Assembly: GCA_014240065.1 (NCBI GenBank)
Contig: JAAZXR010000023.1
Location: forward strand, 1-63,347
Length of the DNA: 63,347 nt
Source: Myxococcales bacterium
GTDB lineage: Bacteria > Myxococcota_A > Polyangia > Nannocystales > Nannocystaceae
Reading direction: 5' to 3'
The notes under the pieces were generated by a model that made no database searches, was not told the DNA's origin, and worked only from the letters and a program-made list of their open reading frames with translations. Shown in pieces: positions 7,419 to 25,310 of this stretch. Position 1 is the stretch's first letter. Each line of letters starts with the position of its first letter. The translations under genes were made by a program, and so were the position numbers.

Positions 7419-10400
7419 ATGAACGGACGACCTCTTCGGCGCGTCGTTGGCCTCGCGGGCCTTCTTAGCATTGGACTTATCCACGGGTGTTTTTCGGAGG
7501 CAGTGAGCCTCAACACCGTCGAAGATCTTGAGGCGATGCTGTCCGCGGCCGACGACGTGGGGACGTCGGACGCCACCTCCATGGGGGAGTCGGGTGAGTC
7601 GGGAACGGCCGAGGGGACGGGCGACGGGGACGGGGACGGGGACGGCGACGGCGATCCGACGACGACGGGTGACGGGGACGGCGACGGCGATCCGACGACG
7701 ACGGGCGACGGCGACGGGGACGGGGATGTGTGCGGCGACGGGATGCTCGCGGCGGGGGAGGCCTGCGACGACGGCAACATGGATGCGGGAGACGGCTGCG
7801 ACGCCGCGTGCCAGGTGGAGACCGGCTTTGAGTGTGACGATCAAGAGCCCAGCGTGTGCGACGCCGTGTGCGGTGACGGCATCGTGGTCGGGACCGAGGC
7901 CTGCGACGACGGCTTGACGATCAACGGCAGCGGGCTCTCGGACTGCATGTCCGACTGCACCCTCACCACCTGCGGCGACGACTTCAAGGGCGCCTCGGAA
8001 GAGTGCGACACCGGCGGTCTCAACGGCACCGGCAATTCCGACTGTCGATCCGATTGCAGCCTGTCGCTCTGTGGCGATGGCTTCGACGGACTCACCGAAG
8101 GGTGCGACGACGGGAACACCACCGCAGGAGACGGTTGCTCGCCGACCTGCGTGCCAGAGACCTGCGGCAACGGCACTGTGGAGGCGCCGGAGGCGTGCGA
8201 CGATTCGCAAAATGGGGACCCGGATGACGGTTGCACCGACGCGTGCCTCGAGCCCGCGTGTGGCGATGGCATCATGCAGACCACCGCGTCGCCGCAGCTT
8301 ACGATGGATGAGGCCTGCGATGACGGGCAGGCCAACCAGACGAGCGCCTCGGATTGCACCTTGCAGTGCACCGTGACCACCTGCGGCGATGGATTCAACG
8401 GGCTGTCCGAGGCCTGCGACGACGGCAACCTCGAGGCGGGGGATGGGTGCGGCGCCACCTGCTTGTACGAGGACTGCGGCAACCTCGTGGTGGATCCGGG
8501 CGAGGACTGCGACGACGGGCAAAACAACGATCAAGACGACGGCTGCACCGACTCGTGCACCACGCCCGCGTGCGGCGACGGGTACCCCCAAGCGTCGCTG
8601 GGTGAGGCGTGTGACGACGGGGCGGCCAACGGCACCGAGGCCAGCGACTGCACCGTCGACTGCATGGCGGCCGTGTGCGGGGATGGGGTCGAGAGCCTCA
8701 GCGAAGAATGCGACGACGGCAACCCCGATGCCGGTGACGGCTGTGACCCGAATTGTATGCTCGAGAGCTGTGGCGACGGGGTCGTCGATGCCCCGCTCGA
8801 GGAGTGCGACAACGGCATGGACAACGGGGTGGAGGGGTTCTCCGATTGTACGGCGGCGTGTGAGCTCACCACCTGCGGAGACGGCTACCTCGGCGATCCT
8901 GCCACCGAAGAGTGCGACGACGGCGCGAGCAACGGGCTTGAAGGGGTGACGGATTGTATGGAGGGCTGCATCTTCACCGGGTGCGGCGACGAGTACGTGG
9001 GATCGAGTGAGGCGTGTGACGACGGCGCCGCCAACAACGACAACGGCATGTGCACGGAGATGTGTACGGCGGCGTCCTGCGGGGACGGGTTTGTCTTCGA
9101 CCAAGACGGTGGCACGGAGACCTGCGACGCCGGCGCTGCCAACGGCGTGCCCGACGCCTCCGATTGCCGCAGCGACTGCCAGACGACCACCTGCGGCGAT
9201 GGTTTCGACGGGAGCTCCGAGGGATGCGACGTGGGCCCCGACACCGGGGTGGCGGACGCCTCCGACTGCACCGACACCTGCGAGATCACGTCGTGTGGGG
9301 ACGGCTTCGACGGGCTCTCCGAGGCGTGCGACGACGGCAACAACACCGACGGTGACAACTGCAGCGCGACCTGCGCCTTGGAGTCCTGCGGCAACAACGT
9401 GGTGGACTTTGGCGAGGACTGTGATGACGGCCAAGACGGTGACAACGACGATGGGTGCACGGACAATTGTTTGAACCCGCTCTGCGGAGACGGCTTCCAG
9501 CAGCCCTTGTCCAATCTCGAGCAGTGCGACGATCAAGGGGAGAGCGTGGACTGCGATGGGGACTGCACCTTCGTGTCGTGCGGTGACAACACCTGGAATA
9601 CGAGCGCCGGGGAGGGCTGTGACAACGGATCGCTCAACGGGACCTCCTCGTCTCCGTGTACGGTGGACTGTCAGCCCAATGTCTGCGGCGACGGCTACAT
9701 CAACATCTTCGGGGGTGACGAAGAGTGTGACGACGGTGTCGCCGTGAACGGCACCGGGGCCACGGACTGCAACGACACCTGCCTGCTCACCGTCTGCGGC
9801 GACGACTTCCAGGGCAACAGCGAAGAGTGCGACGACGGGAACCTCATCGACGGAGACGGATGCAGCGCGACCTGCACCTTGCCGGCGTGCGGGGACGGCG
9901 TGGTCGATCTGCAAGAGGAGTGTGACGACGGGGCGAGCAACGGCAACGGCACCTCCGAGTGCGCGGCGGACTGCCTCAACAACGTCTGCGGCGACGGCTA
10001 CGATGGTCCCAACGAGGACTGCGACGAAGGCGGGCTCAACGGCAGCGACCAGTCCAACTGTCTCGTCGACTGCACGCCCAACACCTGCGGCGATGGGGTG
10101 CAGGGTGCCTTCGAGGGGTGTGATGCCGGCGTCGACAACGGCGTCACCAACGCCTCCGACTGCACGAACGCCTGCACACCCACCACCTGCGGCGATGGAT
10201 TTGATGGGCTCGCGGAGCAATGCGACGAAGGCGCGCTCAACGGCACCTCCAACTCAGACTGTCTCGCGGACTGCACGGCCAACACCTGCGGGGATGGTGT
10301 ACAGAGCGCCTCGGAGGTCTGCGACGACGGGGCGAGCAACGGCGACGGCAACTCGTCGTGCACGGTCGGCTGCGCGCTCAACACCTGCGGCGACGGCTAC

Positions 10401-13400
10401 CACGGCCCGGGCGAGGGCTGCGACGACGGGGCGGACAACGGCGATGGCGCGGTCACCGATTGCACCGACGCGTGCCAGGTGACAGTGTGCGGCGATGGGT
10501 TCAATGGTCTCACCGAGGCCTGCGACGCTGGCGCGAACAACGACGTGGAGGGGCAGTCCGAGTGTCGCAACGTGGGCGGCGTGTGCACGGAAAATAGTTG
10601 TGGAGATGATTTTCAGAGTGCCACCGAGGCCTGCGACGACGGCACCGATCCCAACACCGGCAACGGCACCGCCAACTCCGAGTGCAGCGCGCTGTGCCAG
10701 CTCGCGAGCTGCGGCGACGGCACAGTGGGGCTCGGCGAAGAGTGCGACAACGGCACCGCCAACAACGCCGACGATGCCTCGTGTACCCTGGCGTGCGCGG
10801 ACGCGTATTGCGGGGATGGCCTGCAGTGGACCACCGACGGCGGCGCTGAGGCCTGCGACGACGGAGCGAACAGCGGCGTGGAAGGGGCCTCCGATTGCAC
10901 GGGGAACTGCCTGGTGACCACCTGCGGCGATGGTTTCTTGGGCGCGTCCGAGGCCTGCGACGACGGGGCGAACACGGGCGTCTCGAGCGCCTCGAACTGC
11001 TGGGATGTGGGGGGCGTGTGCACCGTCAATGTCTGCGGAGACGGCTTCATTGGGCTGACGGAGGCCTGCGATGACGGCGGCGCCACCGCGTCCTGCGACG
11101 CGAGCTGCAACTTGGTCAGCTGCGGCAATGGCACCATCGATGCGGGCGAAGACTGCGACGACCAAAACAGCGACAACGACGACGGCTGCACCGAGGCCTG
11201 CCTCGCTCCGTCCTGCGGCGACGGGTTCGTGCAGCCAAGCACGAACGGCGAGGAGTGCGACGACGGCGCAGCCAACGGTGACGGCACCTCGTCGTGCAGC
11301 GCGAGCTGTACCCTCAACACCTGCGGCGACGAGTACGTGTACACAGCCGGGGGCGAAGGCTGCGACGACGGGGAGGAGAACGGCCAGGGCACCACGCCGT
11401 GCAGCCAGGACTGCGCGCTCAACACCTGCGGCGACGAGTACGTGTACACCGGCGGCGGGGAGACCTGCGATGCGGGCGCGAACAATGGCGACGGATCGCT
11501 CAGCGATTGCACCTCGGCCTGTGAGGTCACCACCTGCGGGGATGGCTTCGACGGGGTCAGCGAGGTCTGCGACGACGGGAACGCCGACGAGGACGACGGC
11601 TGCACCAGCGCCTGCGCCTTGCCCACCTGCGGCGACGGCTTGCACCAACCGAGCACCAATTCCGAGGCCTGCGACGAGGGGGCGCTCAACGGGGTCGAAG
11701 ATCAGTCTGACTGCCAGAGCGATTGCACGGTCACCACCTGCGGCGACAGCTTCGACGGGCTCAGCGAGGGCTGCGACGACGGGAACCAGACCACCGAGAC
11801 CTGCACCTACGGTTCTTCGGAGCCGTGCACAGTGTGCGACGATTCGTGCAATGAGGTGGCTGGCCAGCTCACCTACTGCGGCGACGAAGTCGTGGACGGT
11901 TCGAACAACGAGGACTGCGAGGACATCCCCGGTAACGCCGTCACCGAGACCTGCCCGTACGGGGAGACCTCGTGTCCGGTGTGTGACGCGTCGTGCGTGC
12001 AGGTCAACGGCGCCACCTCCTATTGTGGCGACGGCTCCATCGACAACATCGAGGAGACCTGCGACGACGGGAACGCGGTCACAGAGGATTGCCCGTACGG
12101 GGAGCCCTCCTGCACCGTGTGTACCTCGGCGTGTGCCTATGGAGACGGCGGCAACGTCTCGTACTGCGGCGACGGGGTCGAGGACACCGGGAACAACGAG
12201 CAGTGCGACGACGGCAACACGAACACCGAGACCTGCGACTACGGCGATTCCACCGGATGCACCGTGTGCGACGCCGGATGCAATTCGGTGGCGGGCGCGA
12301 CGAGCTGGTGCGGCGATTCCATCCAAGACAACGCCAACGGCGAGGACTGCGACTTTGGAGACGGCGTCAACGGCGCCCAAGAGTGCGCCTACGGGCTGCC
12401 CTCCTGCCAGGTGTGCAGCGCCATCTGCGAGTATGAGTTCGGCGAGACCGACTATTGTGGGGACGGCACCGAGGACCCGCAGGAGGGCTGCGATGACGGC
12501 AACACCGACACCGAAGAGTGCCCGTACGGGGTGACCTCGTGTCCGGTGTGTGACGCCACGTGCAACAGCGTCGGGGGCGCCACCTCCTATTGTGGCGACA
12601 CCATCGTCGATTCCGACAACGACGAGACCTGCGACGACGGCAACGCCACGGCCGGTGACGGCTGCAGCGAGATCTGCCGCTCGGAAGTGTGCGGCAATTT
12701 CTCCGTCGATTCGGGCGAGCAGTGCGATGACGGCGCCAACGCCGACAACGACGACGGCTGCACCGTGAACTGCGCCTTCCCCACCTGCGGCGATGGGTTC
12801 GTCCAAGGCAGCCTGAACGAGAACTGTGATGACGGGAACGCGATCACCGAAGAGTGTCCGTATGGGGAGACCCAATGTTGGGTGTGCGATGAGAATTGCG
12901 ACTACGTGAACGGCGAGACCGACTATTGCGGGGACGGAACCGAGGACCCGTCGGAGGCCTGCGACGACAACAACAACGTCACGGAGACCTGTCCGTATGG
13001 GGAGACCCAATGTTGGGTGTGCGACTCGGGCTGCAACGATATCCAAGGCGAGACCTCCTTTTGCGGGGACGGGACCCCGGACCCCGGGGAGCCCTGCGAC
13101 GACGGCAACTTCAACAACGCCAGCGGGCAGTCCGACTGCCGGCAAGTGTTCGACGCGGTGGAAGGCCACGACGTGTGCGTCGCCAACATCTGCGGAGACT
13201 CGTACCAGGGCGCGACCGAGGATTGCGACGAAGGGGGGGTCCCCGCCGTCGACTGCGACGACGACTGCACCATCGTGGAGTGTGGGGACGGCAACATCAA
13301 CCCCGTTGCGGGCGAGATCTGCGACGACGGCCCCACCAACGGAGATGGGGTCAGCAGCGACTGCCATCCCATTTGGTGCACGCCCAACACCTGCGGGGAC

Positions 13401-15668
13401 GGCTACGTTGGCCCCACAGACGAGTGCGATGATGGCGTGCCGAACAGCAACAACGACAACTGCGTGGAGGACCCGATGGATTCGTCGCGGTGCATCTTCG
13501 CCTATTGTGGCGACGGCTACGTGGGGCCGGGCGAGGCCTGCGACGAGGGCGCGGCCAACAGCGACACCTCGTCCACCTGCACCGCGTCCTGCGTGGTCCC
13601 CAGCTGTGGGGACGGCCTCGTGGCGGACTCCGAGGAGTGCGACACGGGCGTGCTCAACGTCAACGACGGCTGCAGCGACACCTGCAGCGTCGAGGCGGGA
13701 TGGACGTGCGCTGGGACGCCCAGCACCTGCATCACGGACTGTGGGGACGGCATCCCAGCGGGCAACGAGAAGTGCGACGACGGCAACAACATCGTGGACG
13801 ACTGCGACTACGGGCAGCTGAGCTGCACTGTGTGCGGACCGTCCTGCACGGTGGTGCCCGGCAACGCCACCTACTGCGGGGACGGCGTGGTCGACGGCGG
13901 CAACGGGGAGAACTGTGATACGGCGCTGCCCCTCGACCCCGACACGTGTTCCAATGAAACCGGCTTCGACCGGCCCAACGGGCGAGCCCCGTGCAGCGCC
14001 GACACCTGCACCTACGATCTCACCGGCTGCGTGCAAGGGTCCATCGCCTTCTTGAGCGAGGAGAAGATGCGCGGCAACCTGGACATAGCGGGCGTTGGCA
14101 CTGGAGAGGGTGCCGCCGACCAAAACTGCCAAGACGAGGCGGAGGCCGCCGGGCTCCCCGGCACCTTCAGCGCGATGCTCGCAGGGGGGGGAAGTGATGA
14201 TGTGTTGGGGGATTTTGGCACGGAGGGGTTCTACCGGCCCGACGGGACGCCGTGGCTGTACAGGCTGGAAGACGCGTGCGTTGACCTCGACCCGGGTTCG
14301 GCTACGCCGGACATCGAAACTGGCCCCTACCTGTCCATGCTTAAACACCACGCCGACGGCAGCAGCGCCCCCTCGACGACGGTCTGGACCGGCATACGGA
14401 ACAGTGACTGCAAATCGGGGGGGAGCAATTGGAATTGCGAAGGGTGGACGTCGGGGGCCGCCACCGACACCGGGATCGCCGGCAAGACCAAAGTTGTCGA
14501 TGGCAACGCGCTGTTCGGGGAAAACGCCACCCACGGCGTGTCGAGTGATGGCAGACTCGATTGCGACGAGGAGCTTCGGGTGATCTGCGCCCAAGACGAC
14601 CAGGGGTTTGTCGCAGAGGCTGGCCCGGTCGAGGTGGGCGCCGTCACCGACGGTCGCCTCGCGTTTTTGACGGAAAACGACTACGGTCCCTCCGCGGAGC
14701 CCTGGTCCAATGCCGCATTGGCCTGTGAGAGCGAAGGCCAAGCGGCCACAGGGGACGGCACCCGGCACTTCCGACCGCTGCTGCCCATCGGCGACGACAC
14801 CATCGCCGTCACCGACTACTTCGAGGAGGTCGCTGGCGGGGTCGTCTACCGCGATGCGGACACCCCGCCGTCCATGGTCGCCTCGGGGTACAAGGTCGCC
14901 GACACCGGCTCCGATTTCTTCTCGCGTACCAACAAGCGGGCGATCTTTCAGTTTCGGTCCGACCAGTACGGCTACGACACCGACACCGGCACCGGCAACA
15001 AGATGTGGATCGGCTACAAGAACGGGCAGGACTACTTCACACCCATGACGGGGGGCAGCTCGTGCACGAGCTTCACCGCCCCGACGGGCGAAGGCAGGTC
15101 TCGCTTCATCGCGGATCCCAACTACGACGGGACAATTAGTTGCGGCAGCAATGTCCCCGTCCCGTGCCTCGAGGACTGCGACGTGGGCACGCTCAACGCC
15201 GGCGCCGATATCTGCCCGTGCTCGTTAAGTTGCGGGGAAACGGGCCTGTGGCAGAGCTTCACCGCGACCACCCAGGGGACCGACGACCAGCTGTCCATGG
15301 TGTGCTTCGAGGCCATGCTCCCCCCCGGAGGCGCCACGGCGACCCTCACCTTGTTCGAGGGGGTGGGCACCTCGGGCACGCAGTTGACGCCCGGCCAGGC
15401 GATCTGCGGGGCGGATACCGGTGGCGCCGCGCAGCAGTTCTGCGTGGGGCTCGCGAGCACGGTGCCGTTCACGGCCGGCAACGACTACACCTGGGCCCTG
15501 TCGGGCATCAACAGCGCGGACATGCCGAACACCTGCTTCGGCTTCGACGGTGGGTCGGACGCCTACCCGGGGGAGGGCAGCCTCGGGGCCGGCTTCGACT
15601 GGAACTTCGAGATCTATTCCATGGATGAATGTGGCTTTAGGACGCCGCCGCAGAGCGCGTGCCCATGA
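7419..15668 (+). CDS. Giant Cys-rich repeat surface lipoprotein (DUF4215 type)
   Basis: A 2749-residue exported protein. The signal peptide ends in a lipobox-like LIHGC (Cys24), followed by a Gly-Asp-rich linker to about residue 104. Residues 105 to about 2207 are 57 consecutive units starting CG[DN], of the form CGDG..xxx..E.CDDG..xGDGC..xC, which matches the myxobacterial disulfide repeat (DUF4215) family. Short units have four cysteines. Units 40-45, 48, 49 and 56 are longer, with an added PYGxxxC segment. The C-terminus (about 2208-2749) holds two related domains resembling DUF1554 (N-rich region AFLSEEKMRGNLD, and AFLTEND), then a beta-rich tail. The acidic DDGN/DGDG segments could bind calcium, but this is inference. 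Function is unknown; a surface, adhesive or matrix role is plausible. The size is extreme for the family. Confidence 0.9.
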   Translation: MNGRPLRRVVGLAGLLSIGLIHGCFSEAVSLNTVEDLEAMLSAADDVGTSDATSMGESGESGTAEGTGDGDGDGDGDGDPTTTGDGDGDGDPTTTGDGDGDGDVCGDGMLAAGEACDDGNMDAGDGCDAACQVETGFECDDQEPSVCDAVCGDGIVVGTEACDDGLTINGSGLSDCMSDCTLTTCGDDFKGASEECDTGGLNGTGNSDCRSDCSLSLCGDGFDGLTEGCDDGNTTAGDGCSPTCVPETCGNGTVEAPEACDDSQNGDPDDGCTDACLEPACGDGIMQTTASPQLTMDEACDDGQANQTSASDCTLQCTVTTCGDGFNGLSEACDDGNLEAGDGCGATCLYEDCGNLVVDPGEDCDDGQNNDQDDGCTDSCTTPACGDGYPQASLGEACDDGAANGTEASDCTVDCMAAVCGDGVESLSEECDDGNPDAGDGCDPNCMLESCGDGVVDAPLEECDNGMDNGVEGFSDCTAACELTTCGDGYLGDPATEECDDGASNGLEGVTDCMEGCIFTGCGDEYVGSSEACDDGAANNDNGMCTEMCTAASCGDGFVFDQDGGTETCDAGAANGVPDASDCRSDCQTTTCGDGFDGSSEGCDVGPDTGVADASDCTDTCEITSCGDGFDGLSEACDDGNNTDGDNCSATCALESCGNNVVDFGEDCDDGQDGDNDDGCTDNCLNPLCGDGFQQPLSNLEQCDDQGESVDCDGDCTFVSCGDNTWNTSAGEGCDNGSLNGTSSSPCTVDCQPNVCGDGYINIFGGDEECDDGVAVNGTGATDCNDTCLLTVCGDDFQGNSEECDDGNLIDGDGCSATCTLPACGDGVVDLQEECDDGASNGNGTSECAADCLNNVCGDGYDGPNEDCDEGGLNGSDQSNCLVDCTPNTCGDGVQGAFEGCDAGVDNGVTNASDCTNACTPTTCGDGFDGLAEQCDEGALNGTSNSDCLADCTANTCGDGVQSASEVCDDGASNGDGNSSCTVGCALNTCGDGYHGPGEGCDDGADNGDGAVTDCTDACQVTVCGDGFNGLTEACDAGANNDVEGQSECRNVGGVCTENSCGDDFQSATEACDDGTDPNTGNGTANSECSALCQLASCGDGTVGLGEECDNGTANNADDASCTLACADAYCGDGLQWTTDGGAEACDDGANSGVEGASDCTGNCLVTTCGDGFLGASEACDDGANTGVSSASNCWDVGGVCTVNVCGDGFIGLTEACDDGGATASCDASCNLVSCGNGTIDAGEDCDDQNSDNDDGCTEACLAPSCGDGFVQPSTNGEECDDGAANGDGTSSCSASCTLNTCGDEYVYTAGGEGCDDGEENGQGTTPCSQDCALNTCGDEYVYTGGGETCDAGANNGDGSLSDCTSACEVTTCGDGFDGVSEVCDDGNADEDDGCTSACALPTCGDGLHQPSTNSEACDEGALNGVEDQSDCQSDCTVTTCGDSFDGLSEGCDDGNQTTETCTYGSSEPCTVCDDSCNEVAGQLTYCGDEVVDGSNNEDCEDIPGNAVTETCPYGETSCPVCDASCVQVNGATSYCGDGSIDNIEETCDDGNAVTEDCPYGEPSCTVCTSACAYGDGGNVSYCGDGVEDTGNNEQCDDGNTNTETCDYGDSTGCTVCDAGCNSVAGATSWCGDSIQDNANGEDCDFGDGVNGAQECAYGLPSCQVCSAICEYEFGETDYCGDGTEDPQEGCDDGNTDTEECPYGVTSCPVCDATCNSVGGATSYCGDTIVDSDNDETCDDGNATAGDGCSEICRSEVCGNFSVDSGEQCDDGANADNDDGCTVNCAFPTCGDGFVQGSLNENCDDGNAITEECPYGETQCWVCDENCDYVNGETDYCGDGTEDPSEACDDNNNVTETCPYGETQCWVCDSGCNDIQGETSFCGDGTPDPGEPCDDGNFNNASGQSDCRQVFDAVEGHDVCVANICGDSYQGATEDCDEGGVPAVDCDDDCTIVECGDGNINPVAGEICDDGPTNGDGVSSDCHPIWCTPNTCGDGYVGPTDECDDGVPNSNNDNCVEDPMDSSRCIFAYCGDGYVGPGEACDEGAANSDTSSTCTASCVVPSCGDGLVADSEECDTGVLNVNDGCSDTCSVEAGWTCAGTPSTCITDCGDGIPAGNEKCDDGNNIVDDCDYGQLSCTVCGPSCTVVPGNATYCGDGVVDGGNGENCDTALPLDPDTCSNETGFDRPNGRAPCSADTCTYDLTGCVQGSIAFLSEEKMRGNLDIAGVGTGEGAADQNCQDEAEAAGLPGTFSAMLAGGGSDDVLGDFGTEGFYRPDGTPWLYRLEDACVDLDPGSATPDIETGPYLSMLKHHADGSSAPSTTVWTGIRNSDCKSGGSNWNCEGWTSGAATDTGIAGKTKVVDGNALFGENATHGVSSDGRLDCDEELRVICAQDDQGFVAEAGPVEVGAVTDGRLAFLTENDYGPSAEPWSNAALACESEGQAATGDGTRHFRPLLPIGDDTIAVTDYFEEVAGGVVYRDADTPPSMVASGYKVADTGSDFFSRTNKRAIFQFRSDQYGYDTDTGTGNKMWIGYKNGQDYFTPMTGGSSCTSFTAPTGEGRSRFIADPNYDGTISCGSNVPVPCLEDCDVGTLNAGADICPCSLSCGETGLWQSFTATTQGTDDQLSMVCFEAMLPPGGATATLTLFEGVGTSGTQLTPGQAICGADTGGAAQQFCVGLASTVPFTAGNDYTWALSGINSADMPNTCFGFDGGSDAYPGEGSLGAGFDWNFEIYSMDECGFRTPPQSACP
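7611..7730 (+). repeat. Tandem repeat encoding the Gly-Asp linker
   Basis: A degenerate array of GGGGAC/GGCGAC hexamers contains two copies of a 36-base unit encoding TTTGDGDGDGDP. It forms the linker between the lipid anchor and the first cysteine repeat. Its low complexity makes it prone to length variation. Confidence 0.75.
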
Positions 15669-17921: not shown

Positions 17922-19394
17922 ATGAAAAACCACCTCTGCCTCGCGGCGGCGCTCGCGCTCAGCAGCACCGCGTGTGATCGAAGCTCTCCCTCGTCCTCCA
18001 ACCTGGAGGCGGCGCCCGTCATCGATTTGGCGCGCTACGAAGTCCAACGCCTCCCCGACGACGAGGTGCTCGGGGCCAAGAACCCGTTGGTGACGTTGGT
18101 GCTGTTCAGTGACTACGCCTGCGAACCGTGCGGGCGCGCGTGGACGGTCGCCCAGCGGCTGGTGGAGCACTACCCCGACGAGCTCGCGGTGGTGTATCGG
18201 AGCTTCCGCGTCCCCGGCTACGATTCCGGGGAGATCGCCGCCGACGCCGCGTTCGCCGCGGGCGCCCAGGGCAAGTTCTGGGAGATGCACCGCGCGCTGT
18301 TCCTCAACACCGACAACTTCTCGCGCCCGAGCCTGCGCTTGGCCTCCGAGAAACTGGGCCTGGACACGGAGAAGTTCTTCGATGATCTCGACGGCGGGAT
18401 CGGCACGGGGACGAAGATTCGGCACCAGCGCCAAGCCACACAATTTGGGATCCGTGCGCTCCCGGTGGGCTTCGTGAACGGGCTGTTTTTGATGGGGTCT
18501 CCTCTGCTCAGTGAGTCGGGGATGCGCGGGTTGGTCGAGGCCGAGATAGGGCAAGCGAGGCGCTTGATGCAAGAAGGCACCCTCCGCAAAGACGTGTACG
18601 CGGCGTTCATGCGCGGCGCGCTCCGCAAGCCCGTCATCGAGAACGAGGACGCGCAGGAGCTCCGGAGCAAGCGCGCGGCGCTGCTCGGCGACAAGCCCGC
18701 GGCGAACGTGCCGAGGAATGGCCCCGACCGACGGGCTCGTTACGCGGTCCCGGTGGGCGCGCCCGGCCGTGGACCCGCGGCCGCGCCGGTGGTCGCGGTG
18801 GAGTTCGTCGATTTCATGTGTCCGTTTTGCCAACGCGCGGAGACAGACGTGGTCGAGAAGCTCGCGGCGGAGTTTGGTGACGCGCTTCGCATCGAGACCC
18901 GTCAGCTCCCGCTCCCGATGCACCAGGGGGCGGACGCGGCGGCGCGCGCATACTTGGCGGCGGCGCGGCAAGGCAAGCACGTAGAGTTCGGGGCGGAGTT
19001 GTTTGACGCCCCCGCGATCGGTCGTGAGACCTTCCTCCAGCTCGCGCGCAAGGCCGGGCTCGAGCTCGGGCAATTCACCGCCGACTTCGACGATCCGGCC
19101 CTCGGCAAGCAGGTGGAGGCAGACATCGCCCTCGCGCGGCAGCTGGGTGTCTCCGGGACCCCCGCCATGTTTGTCAACGGTCGCTACATCGACGGGCTGC
19201 AGGGCGTCGGCACCTACGCGGGCCTCGTCCGCGAGGAGCTGAGCCGCGCCGAGCAACTCACCAAATCGGGGACGCCCCGCGATGCGCTCCGCGCCGCGCT
19301 GATGGCCGACGCGCTCCCACCATCCAAGTTTCCCAACCCGACGCTCCCAGAGGAGGGCGCCGGGCTCACTGCCACTCCAGAGGCGAGTCCGTAG
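17922..19394 (+). CDS. Lipoprotein with two DsbA-like thioredoxin domains
   Basis: A 490-residue exported lipoprotein (lipobox STAC, Cys18) made of two Thioredoxin_4 (DsbA-type) domains. Domain 1 has the redox motif CEPC (67-70) but its cis-proline loop reads ALPVGFVNG rather than the usual TP. Domain 2 has CPFC (300-303) and the typical GTPAMFVNG. Between them is a charged linker (about 235-285). By homology each domain catalyses thiol-disulfide exchange outside the cytoplasm; whether as oxidase, isomerase or reductase cannot be told from sequence. It is the first of three neighbouring multi-domain thioredoxin proteins, with a fourth, TlpA-like protein after them. The unusual motif of domain 1 suggests specialisation. 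Confidence 0.88.
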   Translation: MKNHLCLAAALALSSTACDRSSPSSSNLEAAPVIDLARYEVQRLPDDEVLGAKNPLVTLVLFSDYACEPCGRAWTVAQRLVEHYPDELAVVYRSFRVPGYDSGEIAADAAFAAGAQGKFWEMHRALFLNTDNFSRPSLRLASEKLGLDTEKFFDDLDGGIGTGTKIRHQRQATQFGIRALPVGFVNGLFLMGSPLLSESGMRGLVEAEIGQARRLMQEGTLRKDVYAAFMRGALRKPVIENEDAQELRSKRAALLGDKPAANVPRNGPDRRARYAVPVGAPGRGPAAAPVVAVEFVDFMCPFCQRAETDVVEKLAAEFGDALRIETRQLPLPMHQGADAAARAYLAAARQGKHVEFGAELFDAPAIGRETFLQLARKAGLELGQFTADFDDPALGKQVEADIALARQLGVSGTPAMFVNGRYIDGLQGVGTYAGLVREELSRAEQLTKSGTPRDALRAALMADALPPSKFPNPTLPEEGAGLTATPEASP

Positions 19395-19463
19395 GCCGCG
19401 TCGCAGATGACGCCGCCGCACAAGTTCCTCGAACAACAAGAAAGCAACACAAGGAAAAAACAC

Positions 19464-21497
19464 ATGACGAAACGAATCCATTGGACCACCCTGGCGGCGA
19501 CCACGCTCGTGCTCGCCCTCGACACCGGCTGCGCGCCCCCACCCGAGGGCGGCGACGAGGCCAAGACGGAAGAGGCTGCCGCGTCTGGCAAGCTGATCAC
19601 CCACAGCGACGTGGACGACTCCATGAACAGCGTCGTCAACGAGTCGAAGCAAGAGCGCTTCCGCATCGACTTCGACGACCAAGATATGGTCAAGGGCGAC
19701 AAAGAGGCGCTCGTGACGATCATCGAGTTCTCGGACTTTCAGTGCCCGTACTGCTCCAAGTTCACGAACACCCTCAAGGAGGTCATGAAGGACGCCACCG
19801 AGACCCGCGTGGTGTTCAAGCAGATGCCGCTGGTGTCGATTCACCCCAACGCCATGCCGGCCGCGCAAGCAGCCCTCGCTGGCTTCAACCAAGACGCCGA
19901 CAAGGGCTGGGCGCTTCACGACAAGCTGTTCGAGAACGCGCGCACGCTCACCCGCGAGAACATCGAGAAGTACGCCGGTGAGGTGGGCCTCGACGTGGAG
20001 AAACTCAAGAAGGATCTCGACGACAAGACCTACGAGCAAGCTGTCAAAGACGACATGGCCTACGCTCGCAAGATGGCCGTGAACTCCACGCCCACCTTCT
20101 TCGTGAACGGTCGCATGCTCAAGGCGCGCTCGGCCGACGCCATCAAGGCCGCTATCGAGGAGGAGAAGGCGCTCGCCAAGAAGCTCATCGAGAAGGGCGC
20201 CAAGAAGGGCGAGATCTACGCGCGCCTCATGAAGGCCGCCAAGGCCGAGCGCAAGGCGCCCAAGCGCCCCGACAAGCGTCGCCCCGGAACCCCGGACCCG
20301 AAGACCAACTTCGCCGTGCCCACCGCCGACCGACCTGCCGTGGGCCCCGCCGACGCGCTGGTCACGATCGTGGAGTTCTCGGATTTCCAATGCCCGTTCT
20401 GCACGCGCGTGAATCCGACGCTCAAGAAGATCAAGGAGACGTACCCCAACGACGTCCGCGTGGTCTTCCGTAACCTCCCGCTGCCCATGCACAAGGACGC
20501 CCCCGGCGCCGCACGTGCCGGGCTCGCCGCGCATCAGCAAGGCAAGTTCTGGGAGATGCACGACGCGATGTTCGCGAAGCAAAAGACGCTCAAGCCCGCG
20601 GACCTCGAGGCCATCGCCGGCGAGATCGGACTTGACGTGGCCAAGTTCAAGGCCGCCATGGACAGCGCAGAGCTGAAGAAAGCGGTGGCAGAGGACATGG
20701 CGACCGCGAAGAAGTTCGGCGCCCGCGGAACCCCGGCGTTCTTCGTGAACGGTCGCTTCGTCTCGGGCGCGCGCCCGTTCGAGCAGTTCGACGTGGTCAT
20801 CAAGGAGGAGAAGGCCAAGGCAGAGAAGTTCCTCGCCGAGAAGGGCGTGTCCAAGGACGCGGTCTACGCGGAGATGAGCAAGGGCTGGGAGCAGGAGTTC
20901 AAGGCTCCGCCTCCACCACCGCCCGCCGACTTCAAGCGTCGCGTGGTGAAGACGGACGGACTCCCGCTCAAGGGTTCCGACTCGGCCAAGGTCACCATCG
21001 TGGAGTGCTCGGACTTCGACTGCCCGTTCTGCAAGCGCGGGGCAGGCACCGTGGAGCAGGTCGCGAAGGAGTTCGGAGACAAGGTCGCCGTGTACTACGC
21101 ACACAACCCCCTCCCCATGCACAAGCAAGCAGAGCCGGCGCACCGCGCGGCGGTGGCGGCGCAGGCCCAGGGCAAGTTCTGGGAGATGCACGACAAGCTG
21201 TTCGCGGACAAGTCCAAGCGCTCCGAGGCTGACTTCGTCGCGATCGCGACCGAGCTCGGGCTCGACGTGGACAAGTTCAAGACCGATTGGGCTGCGGCGG
21301 GTGCCAAGGTGCAAGCGGACATGACCATGTGCCGTAGCCACGGCGTGGGCGGCGTGCCCGGCTTCCTCATCAACGGTCGCCTCATGAGCGGGGCGCAGCC
21401 GTTCCCCACCTTCAAGAAGGTGATCGAAGAGGAGCTCAACGGCGGCTTCGAGGCCACCCAGAAGAAGGCCGCTGCGGCGGGCAAAAAGGCTGGCTGA
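19464..21497 (+). CDS. Lipoprotein with three DsbA-like thioredoxin domains
   Basis: A 677-residue lipoprotein (lipobox DTGC, Cys23) with three DsbA-type thioredoxin domains. The active sites are CPYC (94-97), CPFC (310-313) and CPFC (520-523). The cis-proline loops are STPTFFVNG, GTPAFFVNG and GVPGFLING, so the third has Val in place of Thr. Lys-rich linkers separate the domains. I use the ATG at 19464, preceded by AAGGA, rather than an in-frame start 19 codons upstream that would bury the signal peptide. A strong terminator closes the unit at 21523. Three tandem catalytic domains in one chain are unusual, since DsbA-family proteins normally have one. Confidence 0.9.
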   Translation: MTKRIHWTTLAATTLVLALDTGCAPPPEGGDEAKTEEAAASGKLITHSDVDDSMNSVVNESKQERFRIDFDDQDMVKGDKEALVTIIEFSDFQCPYCSKFTNTLKEVMKDATETRVVFKQMPLVSIHPNAMPAAQAALAGFNQDADKGWALHDKLFENARTLTRENIEKYAGEVGLDVEKLKKDLDDKTYEQAVKDDMAYARKMAVNSTPTFFVNGRMLKARSADAIKAAIEEEKALAKKLIEKGAKKGEIYARLMKAAKAERKAPKRPDKRRPGTPDPKTNFAVPTADRPAVGPADALVTIVEFSDFQCPFCTRVNPTLKKIKETYPNDVRVVFRNLPLPMHKDAPGAARAGLAAHQQGKFWEMHDAMFAKQKTLKPADLEAIAGEIGLDVAKFKAAMDSAELKKAVAEDMATAKKFGARGTPAFFVNGRFVSGARPFEQFDVVIKEEKAKAEKFLAEKGVSKDAVYAEMSKGWEQEFKAPPPPPPADFKRRVVKTDGLPLKGSDSAKVTIVECSDFDCPFCKRGAGTVEQVAKEFGDKVAVYYAHNPLPMHKQAEPAHRAAVAAQAQGKFWEMHDKLFADKSKRSEADFVAIATELGLDVDKFKTDWAAAGAKVQADMTMCRSHGVGGVPGFLINGRLMSGAQPFPTFKKVIEEELNGGFEATQKKAAAAGKKAG

Positions 21498-21522
21498 GTC
21501 CTCCCGGACCTCACCTAGCTCG

Positions 21523-21555
21523 AAGAGGCGCTCCTTGCGGGGCGCCTCTTTTTTT
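21523..21555 (+). terminator. Rho-independent terminator
   Basis: A perfect 9-bp stem (AAGAGGCGC at 21523-21531 with GCGCCTCTT at 21542-21550) continues into a T run. It separates the three-domain protein gene from the next transcription unit. Confidence 0.88.
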
Positions 21556-21637
21556 GCGCGAACGAGGGGCCGAAAAGGGGGGGTGTGGTGCGTCAGGAGA
21601 GAAGGGTTTAGGATGCGCAGCACAAAGAGGTGCGCGC

Positions 21638-23080
21638 GTGACCGACGTTTCCAACGACCAAGAACCAAACGGAGCCCCGAGCTCTGCTGACAGCCCGTCC
21701 ACCCCGAAACGCTCCGCGAGCAGCGTGATGGTCTTCATCGTCATGCTCGCTGCGGTCACCGCCCTGGGCTACTTCGCCGGGCAGTACGTCCAAGGGTTCT
21801 TCGCGAAGCCTGTCGAACCGCGCGACGCGAACCGCTACGAGGTTCGGTTGCGGGGGGACGAGCCCCAGCGCGGCCCCGACGACGCGCTCGTCACGATTAT
21901 TGAGTTTTCGGACTTTGAGTGCCCGTACTGCGGCAAGGCGGTGGAGCCGCTTGAGGACGCCATGGCGTCGTTCGAGGGGGACGTCCGGCTGATTTTTAAG
22001 CACTTCCCGCTCCCGGGGCACCGCAACGCGGTCCCGGCCGCGCGCACCGCCTGGGCGGCGCAGCAGCAGGGGAAGTTCTGGGAATTCCACGACTGGTTGT
22101 TTGCGTCGCGTGGGAGCATCGAGGAGCTTCCGGCCCAGGTCGAAAAGCTCGGCTTGGACGCAGATAAACTCGGGGCCGATATGCAGTCGGAGCCGTCCTC
22201 CGACGCCGTCGACGACGATCGCATCGCCGGCGGGGTCGTGGGGATCCGCGGGACGCCTGGCTTTGTCGTCAACGGTCATGTCTATCGCGGCGCGATGCAG
22301 GCCCCGCAGTGGCGCAACATCCTCCGCAGCGAGCTCGACGCGGCCGAGTCGTTGATGTCCGACGAGGGCTTGGAGCGGGCGGAGGTCTACGCCGCGATGA
22401 TGAAGACGGCCGAGAAGCAGCGCGGCCCCGGGGCGCTGCCCTCGGTGGGGAGCCGACCTGGAGCCCCGGACCCCGCGAAGCATTACCGGGTCGGAGCGGG
22501 CGAGGGGCGACCTTCGCGAGGCGCCGCGGATCCGCTGGTGACAATTGTGGAGTTCGCCGATTTTCATTGCCCGTTCTGCGCGAAGGCGGCGAAGATCGTG
22601 GCGCGGGTCGCGGACGCGTTCCCCGAGGACGTCCGCGTGGTGTATCGGCACCACCCCTTGCCCATGCACCCGCGCGCGCGCGCGGCGGCGGCGGCGGCGG
22701 TCGCGGCCCACGCCCAAGGCAAGTTCTGGGAGATGCACGATCTGATCTTTGAGCGTGAGGCCAAGTCTGGCGAGGAGCTCCGCGCGCTCGCGGAGGAGCT
22801 CGGGCTCGATCTTGAGCAGTTCGACGCCGATCTCGTAGATCCAAAGAGCGGCGAACTCATCGACGAGGACATGGCGCTCGCGCGTCAGTTCAACGCGAAC
22901 GGCACCCCCGCGTTCTTCATCAACGGTCGCTTCTTGGCGGGAGCGCGCAGCGCCCCTGAGATGCGGCAGATCGTGAAAGAAGAGCTCGACCGCGCGAAGG
23001 CCCTGGTGACGGCCGGGACCCCACGCGCGCAGGTCTTCGACAAGGTGATGGAGCGCGCCCTGACAGAGGTCGCGAAGTGA
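21638..23080 (+). CDS. Membrane-anchored protein with two DsbA-like domains
   Basis: A 480-residue protein with an N-terminal membrane anchor (VMVFIVMLAAVTALGYFAG, about 30-48) and two DsbA-type domains. These have CPYC (95-98) with GTPGFVVNG, and CPFC (311-314) with GTPAFFING. Unlike its two neighbours it has no lipobox. The GTG at 21638 follows AGAGG and leaves a normal N-terminus; the longer frame upstream overlaps the terminator. A TAGGAT hexamer at 21609-21614 is a possible -10. It overlaps the next gene by four bases (GTGA), so the two are translationally coupled. Together with the two preceding proteins it brings the local count to seven DsbA-like domains. Confidence 0.88.
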   Translation: MTDVSNDQEPNGAPSSADSPSTPKRSASSVMVFIVMLAAVTALGYFAGQYVQGFFAKPVEPRDANRYEVRLRGDEPQRGPDDALVTIIEFSDFECPYCGKAVEPLEDAMASFEGDVRLIFKHFPLPGHRNAVPAARTAWAAQQQGKFWEFHDWLFASRGSIEELPAQVEKLGLDADKLGADMQSEPSSDAVDDDRIAGGVVGIRGTPGFVVNGHVYRGAMQAPQWRNILRSELDAAESLMSDEGLERAEVYAAMMKTAEKQRGPGALPSVGSRPGAPDPAKHYRVGAGEGRPSRGAADPLVTIVEFADFHCPFCAKAAKIVARVADAFPEDVRVVYRHHPLPMHPRARAAAAAAVAAHAQGKFWEMHDLIFEREAKSGEELRALAEELGLDLEQFDADLVDPKSGELIDEDMALARQFNANGTPAFFINGRFLAGARSAPEMRQIVKEELDRAKALVTAGTPRAQVFDKVMERALTEVAK

Positions 23081-23721
23081 ACGCGAGCCCCGCCGTGGAG
23101 CCCGCGACGCCATCGAAGCGACGGGCGCCTCGCGGGGTCCGCTCCGACGGGCTCTCGGTGGTGGCGTACGTCGTCTTTGTGCTCCTGAGCGGCGTCCTCG
23201 TGTTTGGTTTCGCGAGCGCGCTCGGGCCGGCGGTGGATCAGCAGGGGGCCGGGGCGTGCCGCGCGATGCAGACGGAGGTGCGCGCGGGCAGTTTCCCCGA
23301 GTTCAGCGCCCTCGATCGCGGCGGCGAATCGGTCGAACTCGCGCAGCTCCGCGGTACGTTTGTGGTGCTCAACTTTTGGGCGACCTGGTGCGAGCCGTGT
23401 ACCCGCGAGTGGCCGGAACTCGACAAGCTCTCACGTCGATTGCAGGGTCGCGAGGACGTGGTGGTCGTGGCCGTGTCGCTCGACGAGGAGGCGGACGCGG
23501 TGGATCCCTACCTCGCGAGCATGAGCTTGGGACAGACGCCCGTGCGGGTGTGGCGAGACCCCACCGGTGAGGCCAACCGCCTGTTCGGCGGGGAGAAACT
23601 CCACGACACCTACTTTGTGAATGAGCGCGGCGAGCTCGTGGACGCCTTTGTCAACGTGCGGATGTGGGGCTCGAGCGCCGGAGTGCAGTGCGTGGAGAGC
23701 CGCGTCGGGCGGGCGGGCTAG
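23077..23721 (+). CDS. TlpA/ResA-like membrane-anchored thioredoxin
   Basis: A 214-residue protein with one N-terminal transmembrane helix (about 25-47) and a thioredoxin domain of the TlpA/ResA/CcmG family, with active site WCEPC (Cys105, Cys108). This family usually reduces apocytochrome c or CuA-site cysteines on the outer face of the inner membrane. Because no ccmG is found in the ccm operon of this window, this protein is a candidate for that role, but that is inference. It starts at a GTG overlapping the stop of the two-domain protein. Confidence 0.85.
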   Translation: MNASPAVEPATPSKRRAPRGVRSDGLSVVAYVVFVLLSGVLVFGFASALGPAVDQQGAGACRAMQTEVRAGSFPEFSALDRGGESVELAQLRGTFVVLNFWATWCEPCTREWPELDKLSRRLQGREDVVVVAVSLDEEADAVDPYLASMSLGQTPVRVWRDPTGEANRLFGGEKLHDTYFVNERGELVDAFVNVRMWGSSAGVQCVESRVGRAG

Positions 23722-23740: not shown

Positions 23741-24727
23741 TCACGACGAAGACCTGGGATCGCCGCGCGCGAGCAGCCAGGCCACGCACTGCGCCTCGAG
23801 CCCGCTCGGCGCCTGCGGCAGCGTTGGACCGCCGTGGGTGACGAGGCGCATGGACGAGGGGAATCCGACGTGGCCGCCGGGATCGACCCGGACCACGGTG
23901 AGCGCCGCCGACGCCTTCGCGAGTGAGGGGTCCGTGGATCGCGGCGGCACCATGGGATCGTGGACCGCCTGCACGTACAGCGATGGAGTCTCCAGCGTGG
24001 GCAGGAGCGGACCGACCGAGGCGCGGGCGTAGTACTCCGAGACGTCGGCGAATCCAAACCTCGGGACGATGGTGAGCGAGTCAAAGGCGCGCACCGTCTC
24101 GACCCGCGCGACGTCGACCGCGGGGGTGGGCATGGCGTGGGTCGCGTTCGGGGTGCAGTACATCTCCTTGAGCCCGTCGAGCACGTGGCGCCGGTAGATT
24201 TTGGGTCGCAGCGTGTCCAAGACCGACGCGCCAGCGTCCAGATCGAGGGGGCTGCATACGGCGGCGCAGGCGTCCACCAGGTCGGGGCGGTGGGCGGCGA
24301 GCCCGAGGCAAAGGTGCCCGCCGAGGGAGTAGCCGAGGAGGAGGCGACGCCGCGGGCGCTCCAACAGCTTTGAGCGCAAGACGACCTCGAGGTCCGACCA
24401 CAGCCCCGCGTGGTAGAAGTCGACGCCGTCGAGCGCCGCGCCGCGCAACGAGACGAGGAGGCAGGAGACCCCCGCGCGCGCGCAGGCCTCCACGGCGCGG
24501 TGCATGTACACCGAGTCCGCGCTGCCACCGAGGCCGTGCACCACGACCACCACGGCGCCAGAATCCGCCGGGTGCCACACGCAGCGCAGGGGCACCGACC
24601 CGCGAGAAGGATCCTCCACCGTGATCGTCGTGGCGTGTCCCCGCGCGCGGGCGCGGCCCGTGGCGCCCGCGAGGAGCCCGCGCACGTGGGGCGCGAAGGT
24701 CCACCAATGTCCGCTGAGGGCGCCCAC
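23741..24727 (-). CDS. Alpha/beta hydrolase, YheT/EMB8 family
   Basis: A 328-residue cytoplasmic hydrolase with the full serine-hydrolase triad. The nucleophile elbow is GYSLGG (Ser134), the oxyanion segment VVHGLGGSAD (about 63-72), the acid Asp257 in HDPMVP and the histidine His286 in GGHVGF. The pattern matches the YheT-like esterase family, whose substrates are mostly unknown. It converges with the thioredoxin gene upstream and diverges from the ctaB operon. The GTG start follows a TAGGCT hexamer by 6 bases, with no Shine-Dalgarno. Confidence 0.85.
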   Translation of the reverse strand: MGALSGHWWTFAPHVRGLLAGATGRARARGHATTITVEDPSRGSVPLRCVWHPADSGAVVVVVHGLGGSADSVYMHRAVEACARAGVSCLLVSLRGAALDGVDFYHAGLWSDLEVVLRSKLLERPRRRLLLGYSLGGHLCLGLAAHRPDLVDACAAVCSPLDLDAGASVLDTLRPKIYRRHVLDGLKEMYCTPNATHAMPTPAVDVARVETVRAFDSLTIVPRFGFADVSEYYARASVGPLLPTLETPSLYVQAVHDPMVPPRSTDPSLAKASAALTVVRVDPGGHVGFPSSMRLVTHGGPTLPQAPSGLEAQCVAWLLARGDPRSSS

Positions 24728-24833: not shown

Positions 24834-25310
24834 GTGTCCACTCTTGAGCCTGCTCCCACGTACGCGACCGACGGCCCCACCGTGTGGCAAGTCCTCGGTC
24901 CGGTGTTCGTGCTCTCGGCGCTGCTCGGGGCCTTCGTCTACCAGCGCTACGCCGCCTCCGAGACCTATGTCAAGGAGGGCATCGCCCGCATGGACAAGGA
25001 GGGCCCGTCGCTCACAGCGGACGGATGCGTGGACGCGGCGCTCGAGTGGTTCAACGGCTGCGAGGCCAACAGCGCGAACGCGGCGGTGTGCGAGCAAGGG
25101 ATTAAACTCGTGGCGTTTCACTGCCTCAAGGCGGCGCCGCGCGACGAGGCGTGCGAGGCGTACCAGGGCAGCCCGAATGGGCGATGGGTCTACGGCAAGT
25201 GTGAGGAGCGCGGCCAGCGGTGCGTGAACAAGCGCGAGTGCGCCTGCGCGACCGTGTTCCGCTCCATGGAATCGTTTTGTATCAACGATCAGGAGCGCGT
25301 GCAGCTTTGA
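24834..25310 (+). CDS. Small Cys-rich membrane-anchored protein
   Basis: A 158-residue protein with one N-terminal transmembrane helix (about 20-36) and an exported domain with ten cysteines. Two pairs have identical spacing: Cys65/Cys76 and Cys86/Cys97, each C-x10-C in a helix-like stretch. A further cluster, CxxxxxCxC, lies at 130-138. I do not recognise the family. It is the first gene of an overlapping operon with heme O synthase, an ABC exporter and SCO, so a role in oxidase assembly (copper or thiol handling) is plausible but unproven. Start GTG at 24834, directly after a promoter. Confidence 0.7.
   Translation: MSTLEPAPTYATDGPTVWQVLGPVFVLSALLGAFVYQRYAASETYVKEGIARMDKEGPSLTADGCVDAALEWFNGCEANSANAAVCEQGIKLVAFHCLKAAPRDEACEAYQGSPNGRWVYGKCEERGQRCVNKRECACATVFRSMESFCINDQERVQL

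Follow-up and report, generated by a model that had tools for sequence, protein, structure and literature searches.

Tandem DsbA-like domains and a TlpA-like partner in a conserved myxobacterial gene cluster: candidate multivalent disulfide isomerases or reductases

What is the function of three adjacent genes that together encode seven DsbA-like domains? The question is raised by a stretch of DNA of 63,347 nucleotides (contig JAAZXR010000023.1 of assembly GCA_014240065.1, from a Myxococcales bacterium of the Nannocystaceae), which is referred to at its whole length as the window. Four genes, here called A to D, form a tight cluster on the + strand at 17922–23721: A, B and C encode the tandem DsbA-like proteins, and D encodes a TlpA/ResA-like thioredoxin. 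An earlier note, made from the sequence, described them as a dedicated multi-domain thiol machine and proposed clients for it nearby. Our analyses support the machine, on the basis of its conservation within the family and the recurrence of a D-like TlpA partner; the clients fare less well, as described below. The tandem DsbA cluster is real, conserved, more widespread than first thought, and undescribed in the literature that we searched. By analogy with ScsC, in which tying domains together produces an isomerase, A, B and C would most likely be covalently multivalent periplasmic disulfide isomerases or reductases, fed by D much as in ScsC–ScsD. We put the probability of this reading at roughly 0.5.

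Domain structure of the cluster

The four genes are as follows.

17922–19394, + strand: gene A, 490 amino acids, probable lipoprotein with two DsbA-like domains (Pfam matches, ortholog alignment, predicted structure)
19464–21497, + strand: gene B, 677 amino acids, probable lipoprotein with three DsbA-like domains (Pfam matches, ortholog alignment, predicted structure)
21638–23080, + strand: gene C, 480 amino acids, two DsbA-like domains anchored by an N-terminal transmembrane segment (Pfam matches, ortholog alignment)
23077–23721, + strand: gene D, 214 amino acids, membrane-anchored TlpA/ResA-like thioredoxin with WCEPC (AhpC-TSA/Redoxin match)

With spacers of 69 and 140 bases and a 4-base overlap between C and D, the cluster is likely to be an operon. 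Promoter and terminator scans of the cluster gave scores no better than those of shuffled sequence. Gene B starts at the ATG at 19464, with aaggaaaa ahead of it.

Pfam (PF01323/PF13462) identifies two domains in A, three in B and two in C, with E values from 1e-31 to 3e-77, far above chance. At the protein level, PF01323 scores 110, 225 and 145 bits for A, B and C against a gathering score of 25.6, which places all three in the DSBA-like superfamily. The earlier note had given this same architecture, a CxxC motif for each domain, and a TlpA/ResA-like gene overlapping the third; the domains, all seven motifs and the overlap are as it stated. It had also described two lipoproteins and one anchored protein. 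The anchor of C is confirmed as a single N-terminal transmembrane segment, judged from sequence, whereas the lipoprotein status of A and B is taken from their orthologs because their own lipoboxes (STAC and DTGC) are imperfect; in many orthologs the homologous cysteine lies within a good lipobox (LTGC, LGAC or LAAC).

Two other ideas about the cluster were considered. Selenocysteine at a TGA inside the match to the second domain of C was rejected, as the match merely extends beyond the stop codon of C at 23078; this check covered that match in the window, and TGA marks are also present in some other matches. For a phage origin, there is a single weak relative in IMG/VR.

Active sites and predicted structures

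The active-site motifs are CEPC (residues 67–70) and CPFC (300–303) in A; CPYC at 94, CPFC at 310 and CPFC at 520 in B; and CPYC and CPFC in C. All seven domains have both the CxxC and a cis-Pro loop, with the exception of one ortholog row of C2 that has no aligned cis-Pro, and not one CxxC is lost in the 15–16 aligned orthologs per gene. The cis-Pro loops in the window are LP and TP in A, TP, TP and VP in B, and TP in both domains of C, so that five of the seven domains have Thr-cis-Pro. Among the orthologs the residue before cis-Pro is always Thr in A2, B1, B2 and C1, and is Thr in 15/17 for C2; it varies at two sites only, A1 (L/S/G/A/V) and B3 (A/V, with T in three). The difference in loops pointed out in the earlier note, LP in A1 and VP in B3, therefore marks what the alignments indicate to be the two constant outliers among the seven. 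The third domain of B contains two further invariant cysteines, C515 (approximately 21006–21008, in the context ECSDFDCPFC) and C623 (approximately 21330–21332), which may form a second disulfide or a metal site.

AlphaFold predicts two complete DsbA folds for A (pLDDT 84, pTM 0.53) and three for B (pLDDT 86, pTM 0.47). The low global pTM values are consistent with beads joined by flexible linkers. Residues 1–41 of B have pLDDT below 50, and the model has no helix there. The closest folds to the model of A are 3gyk, Corynebacterium diphtheriae DsbA and ScsC, and those to the model of B are BdbD, 3gyk and ScsC, with Z of 20–22. Overall, the nearest solved folds are BdbD, a Silicibacter oxidoreductase, alpha-DsbA2, Corynebacterium DsbA/TsdA and ScsC; ScsC and BdbD are among the closest both by sequence and by structure.

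Conservation and distribution

Among 59 relatives searched, the gene order A-B-C-D is kept by 16 genomes from the window's own family, which includes Nannocystis and Plesiocystis. Two genomes (G002 and G021) carry A-C-D without B in between, and A-C-D may therefore be the core of the cluster. In a domain tree, A2, B2, B3 and C2 of the family form one group (support 0.93), which implies that the cluster expanded by lineage-specific duplication of domains and genes.

A wide scan of 84,980 species genomes gave 78 loci; only the best 80 loci were kept, and the counts are not estimates of frequency. Tandem DsbA proteins of two to six domains, counted per open reading frame (ORF), recur over the Myxococcota: three-domain proteins in Corallococcus, Myxococcus, Pyxidicoccus and Hyalangium, and four-domain proteins in many Polyangia-type metagenome genomes. 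A few Nitrospirota have proteins of two or three domains. The earlier statement that DsbA-family proteins normally carry one domain is correct for characterised DsbA proteins, but the Myxococcota commonly have tandem versions. A full-text literature search, with subscription papers and preprints outside its range, turned up no account of tandem DsbA proteins that are active, and nothing relevant on tandem DsbA or myxobacterial Dsb.

We note three individual loci. One tandem ORF (L111, 9899–13402), which reaches the end of its contig, encodes six or more DsbA domains with CPFC. The genome that contains the window (G000) encodes an additional two-domain CPFC/CPFC protein, also at a contig end (L157, 10397–11941 of G000:C231). 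A two-domain tandem locus of Candidatus Troglogloeales (Nitrospirota; L103) has argJ and argC in its vicinity, a proximity also seen in the family of the window; this is either coincidence or an ancient transfer.

The TlpA-like partner

Protein D has the AhpC-TSA/Redoxin fold, a WCEPC motif and a membrane anchor, and its best matches are ResA and TlpA, although it scores under every NCBIfam cutoff. It has an extra conserved cysteine pair, C61/C205. Residue 176, at the cis-Pro position, is His (CAC) in the window and Pro in the aligned orthologs, including that from G001 of the same genus; this is possibly a recent change or a base error in the metagenome assembly.

Membrane-anchored TlpA-like proteins are the commonest non-DsbA neighbours of tandem DsbA genes. 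A profile search found a D-like TlpA at 14/42 tandem loci and 0/20 single-domain DsbA loci (Fisher p 0.0026), the profile having been built from D and the TlpA neighbours of tandem genes, which makes this result partly circular. With D as the only tblastn query, and with eleven class loci added to the 42, the result was 17/53 tandem loci compared to 0/19 single-domain controls. The D-like TlpA lies directly downstream of the tandem gene in L062, L063, L067, L072 and L080; in other orders, too, it is repeatedly found next to tandem genes. These proteins share with D the loop KxP[DE][ST]Y, and several also share the extra cysteine pair.

Redox supply and proposed mechanism

The host genome is 97.7% complete, and searches of it gave no match to DsbB, VKOR or Erv/ALR. 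DsbD_TM proteins are present. One gene (L159; G000:C201, 2430–4460, − strand) encodes a DsbD_TM-Thioredoxin_7-AhpC/TSA (TlpA-like) fusion; by its domain matches, DsbD and a TlpA-like domain are here physically linked as parts of a single chain. In the phylum, all 285 Myxococcota genomes have DsbA-like matches; VKOR is found in 195 and DsbB in 24 (14 with DsbB only), and 76, including the host, have neither. VKOR is present in most of the window's family, although Plesiocystis pacifica has no match to VKOR or DsbB. Control genomes gave the expected outcome in these searches. Erv/ALR was considered as the missing oxidase and rejected, as it was matched in five family genomes only and not in the host.

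We propose that A, B and C would be periplasmic and membrane-tethered, with two or three catalytically competent domains of DsbA/ScsC type in each chain. With its active sites strung flexibly along one chain, such a protein would attack a non-native disulfide, and the tethered sites would hold the mixed-disulfide intermediate and then resolve it, as trimeric ScsC and dimeric DsbC do by oligomerising. D would most likely give electrons to A, B and C, and would itself be reduced by a DsbD-type membrane protein.

Several points weigh against this proposal. CPYC and CPFC are found in oxidases too, and Thr-cis-Pro is not diagnostic of isomerases. No DsbD or ScsB gene lies inside the cluster, multivalency would follow from the chain alone (with a pTM of 0.47 for the model of B), and the single-domain loci that served as controls for the TlpA partner were few and included other phyla. 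Furthermore, the distribution of VKOR provides most relatives with an oxidant, so that the tandem proteins could be DsbA-type oxidases, donating disulfides to Cys-rich exported proteins and being re-oxidised by VKOR in the genomes that have it and by an unrecognised oxidase in the others. Their DsbA fold and CPxC motifs would suit such a role, as would the abundance of Cys-repeat proteins in the family genomes. It is harder to reconcile with a host genome in which DsbB, VKOR and Erv/ALR are not matched, with the total of 76 of the 285 genomes that have no match to DsbB or VKOR, and with a recurrent partner of the TlpA type, which is usually a reducing thioredoxin. We regard an oxidase function as a genuine possibility, though not a likely one.

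The multivalent isomerase or reductase could also be part of something larger. On this broader view the Myxococcota would have a widespread and undescribed class of multivalent DsbA proteins, with two to six active domains per chain and a special TlpA, which would act as the main periplasmic disulfide-handling system, in approximately a quarter of the phylum without DsbB or VKOR. We suggest this tentatively and consider it rather doubtful in its full extent. If true, it would imply a novel terminal oxidant or an undescribed disulfide-forming route in that quarter, host included. The lack of DsbB and VKOR matches in the host and 75 other Myxococcota genomes with DsbA-like proteins indicates a gap in the knowledge of disulfide formation.

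Candidate clients

Three features around the cluster bear on its clients or its synteny.

7419–15668, + strand: giant DUF4215 protein, 273 Cys
23741–24727, − strand: alpha/beta hydrolase, syntenic neighbour of the cluster
24834–25310, + strand: small protein with one transmembrane segment, 10 Cys, no family match

The earlier note named as possible clients the giant cysteine-rich lipoprotein and, further on, the multiheme cytochromes and CuA subunit, and held that the link would be wrong if such clusters occurred equally without Cys-rich repeat proteins and without alternative complex III (ACIII) and deletion changed neither. Judged in this way, the link either fails or is unproven.

In favour of the cluster as the dedicated foldase of the DUF4215 lipoprotein, the two adjoin in the window, and G022 and G015 each have a six-repeat DUF4215 gene next to a divergent paralog of B. 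However, the giant gene is not a neighbour at any of the 16 orthologous loci; tandem DsbA proteins are present in four genomes with zero DUF4215 (G030, G038, G040 and G046); and the surroundings of tandem loci show no excess of Cys-repeat ORFs (3/53, compared to 1/19 for single-domain loci). The giant was therefore rejected as a dedicated client, and the foldase idea, largely refuted, is highly improbable. The paralogs in G022 and G015 (L055, approximately 9263–11203; L056, approximately 8488–10434, flipped, with B on the + strand) have three domains, of which domain 2 has lost its CxxC and domain 3 now has CDAC.

The respiratory chain presents a different picture. D and actB occur on one contig in 16 family genomes, 5–16 kb apart, and this synteny with ctaB-actA-F-coxBAC would fit an assembly module for copper and heme proteins, whose TlpA and DsbA-like domains keep CuA and CxxCH thiols reduced or carry Cu(I). 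It is relevant here that Caulobacter ScsC binds Cu(I) (PMC8900818), and that TlpA is discussed in connection with assembly of the oxidase copper site (PMC6696091). Against this, D and actB are unlinked in G003, G007 and G019, which have long contigs; G006 has the thiol cluster and no actB match; unrelated arg genes upstream of the cluster are likewise retained at several of these loci; and no act or cox gene is found near any of the 53 tandem loci outside the family. The link is real within the family, but ACIII/caa3 as a dedicated client does not generalise. Because arg genes are syntenic too, and the outside loci lack act/cox, the arrangement is better read as general conservation of gene order, and we consider an assembly module unlikely. 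For A, B and C as isomerases or reductases, the clients would probably be exported disulfide proteins in general rather than a single neighbour.

The small protein at 24834–25310 has 10–11 Cys in relatives and is syntenic between the thiol cluster and ctaB. It is plausibly a disulfide-rich client or an oxidase-assembly factor.

Comparison with known systems

The closest parallel is with ScsC and ScsD of Proteus, Caulobacter and Salmonella, which likewise have Thr-cis-Pro DsbA-like domains, a similar fold (Z of about 21), an adjoining gene for a membrane thioredoxin, and a DsbD-type electron supply, which is proposed for the cluster here. ScsC is an isomerase when its three catalytic domains are held together and an oxidase as a monomer of the same domain (PMC5524982); that of Caulobacter, with Thr-cis-Pro, is an isomerase that forms trimers and binds Cu(I) (PMC8900818), and the Salmonella scs cluster also encodes ScsD, a membrane-associated thioredoxin-family protein (PMC3672137). 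ScsC chains, however, have one domain and trimerise via an N-terminal helix, whereas here there are two or three domains per chain (up to six elsewhere), several tandem genes stand side by side, and scsB, which is DsbD-like, is not in the cluster. Because the oligomerisation helix and an adjacent scsB are missing, we liken the tandem proteins to ScsC/ScsD and do not class them as members.

With the classical DsbA/DsbB and DsbA/VKOR pathways they share the DSBA fold (PF01323), the CPxC motif, the cis-Pro loop and the periplasmic location; they differ in having CPYC/CPFC instead of CPHC, in their 2, 3 and 2 domains, and in the lack of a DsbB or VKOR match in the host. The tandem domains also match the Rcas_1661 family thioredoxin-like (seleno)lipoprotein model (NCBIfam NF041057), but this is a one-domain model with a cutoff of 190 bits, which B exceeds (260) only when summed over three domains, with A (101) and C (135) below it. 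Protein D resembles the TlpA/ResA/CcmG thioredoxins in its transmembrane anchor, WCEPC and best matches, and differs from them in the extra invariant cysteine pair around the domain and, in the window only, in the change of cis-Pro to His.

Two eukaryotic systems are also similar in layout. UGGT, of glycoprotein quality control, has four consecutive DsbA-like domains, and the Foldseek alignment to it covers the chain over its full length, but at 12–14% identity and an rmsd above 14 Å; in UGGT domain 1 has a different topology and domain 4 is discontinuous (PMC7687155). Kinship was rejected, since the match is one of tandem folds only, with no UGGT Pfam domain among the matches, and the likeness is most likely a convergent use of the fold. 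Protein disulfide isomerase (PDI) and ERp57, and the archaeal protein disulfide oxidoreductase (PDO), have several redox-active domains per chain, as here, but of the thioredoxin fold and not the DsbA fold; such domains are described for ERp57 (PMC7687155). Known bacterial isomerases dimerise or trimerise instead, and the single-chain, multi-site design would therefore be an independent route to the layout of eukaryotic PDI. The cluster thus makes it testable whether valency by itself converts a DsbA domain from an oxidase to an isomerase.

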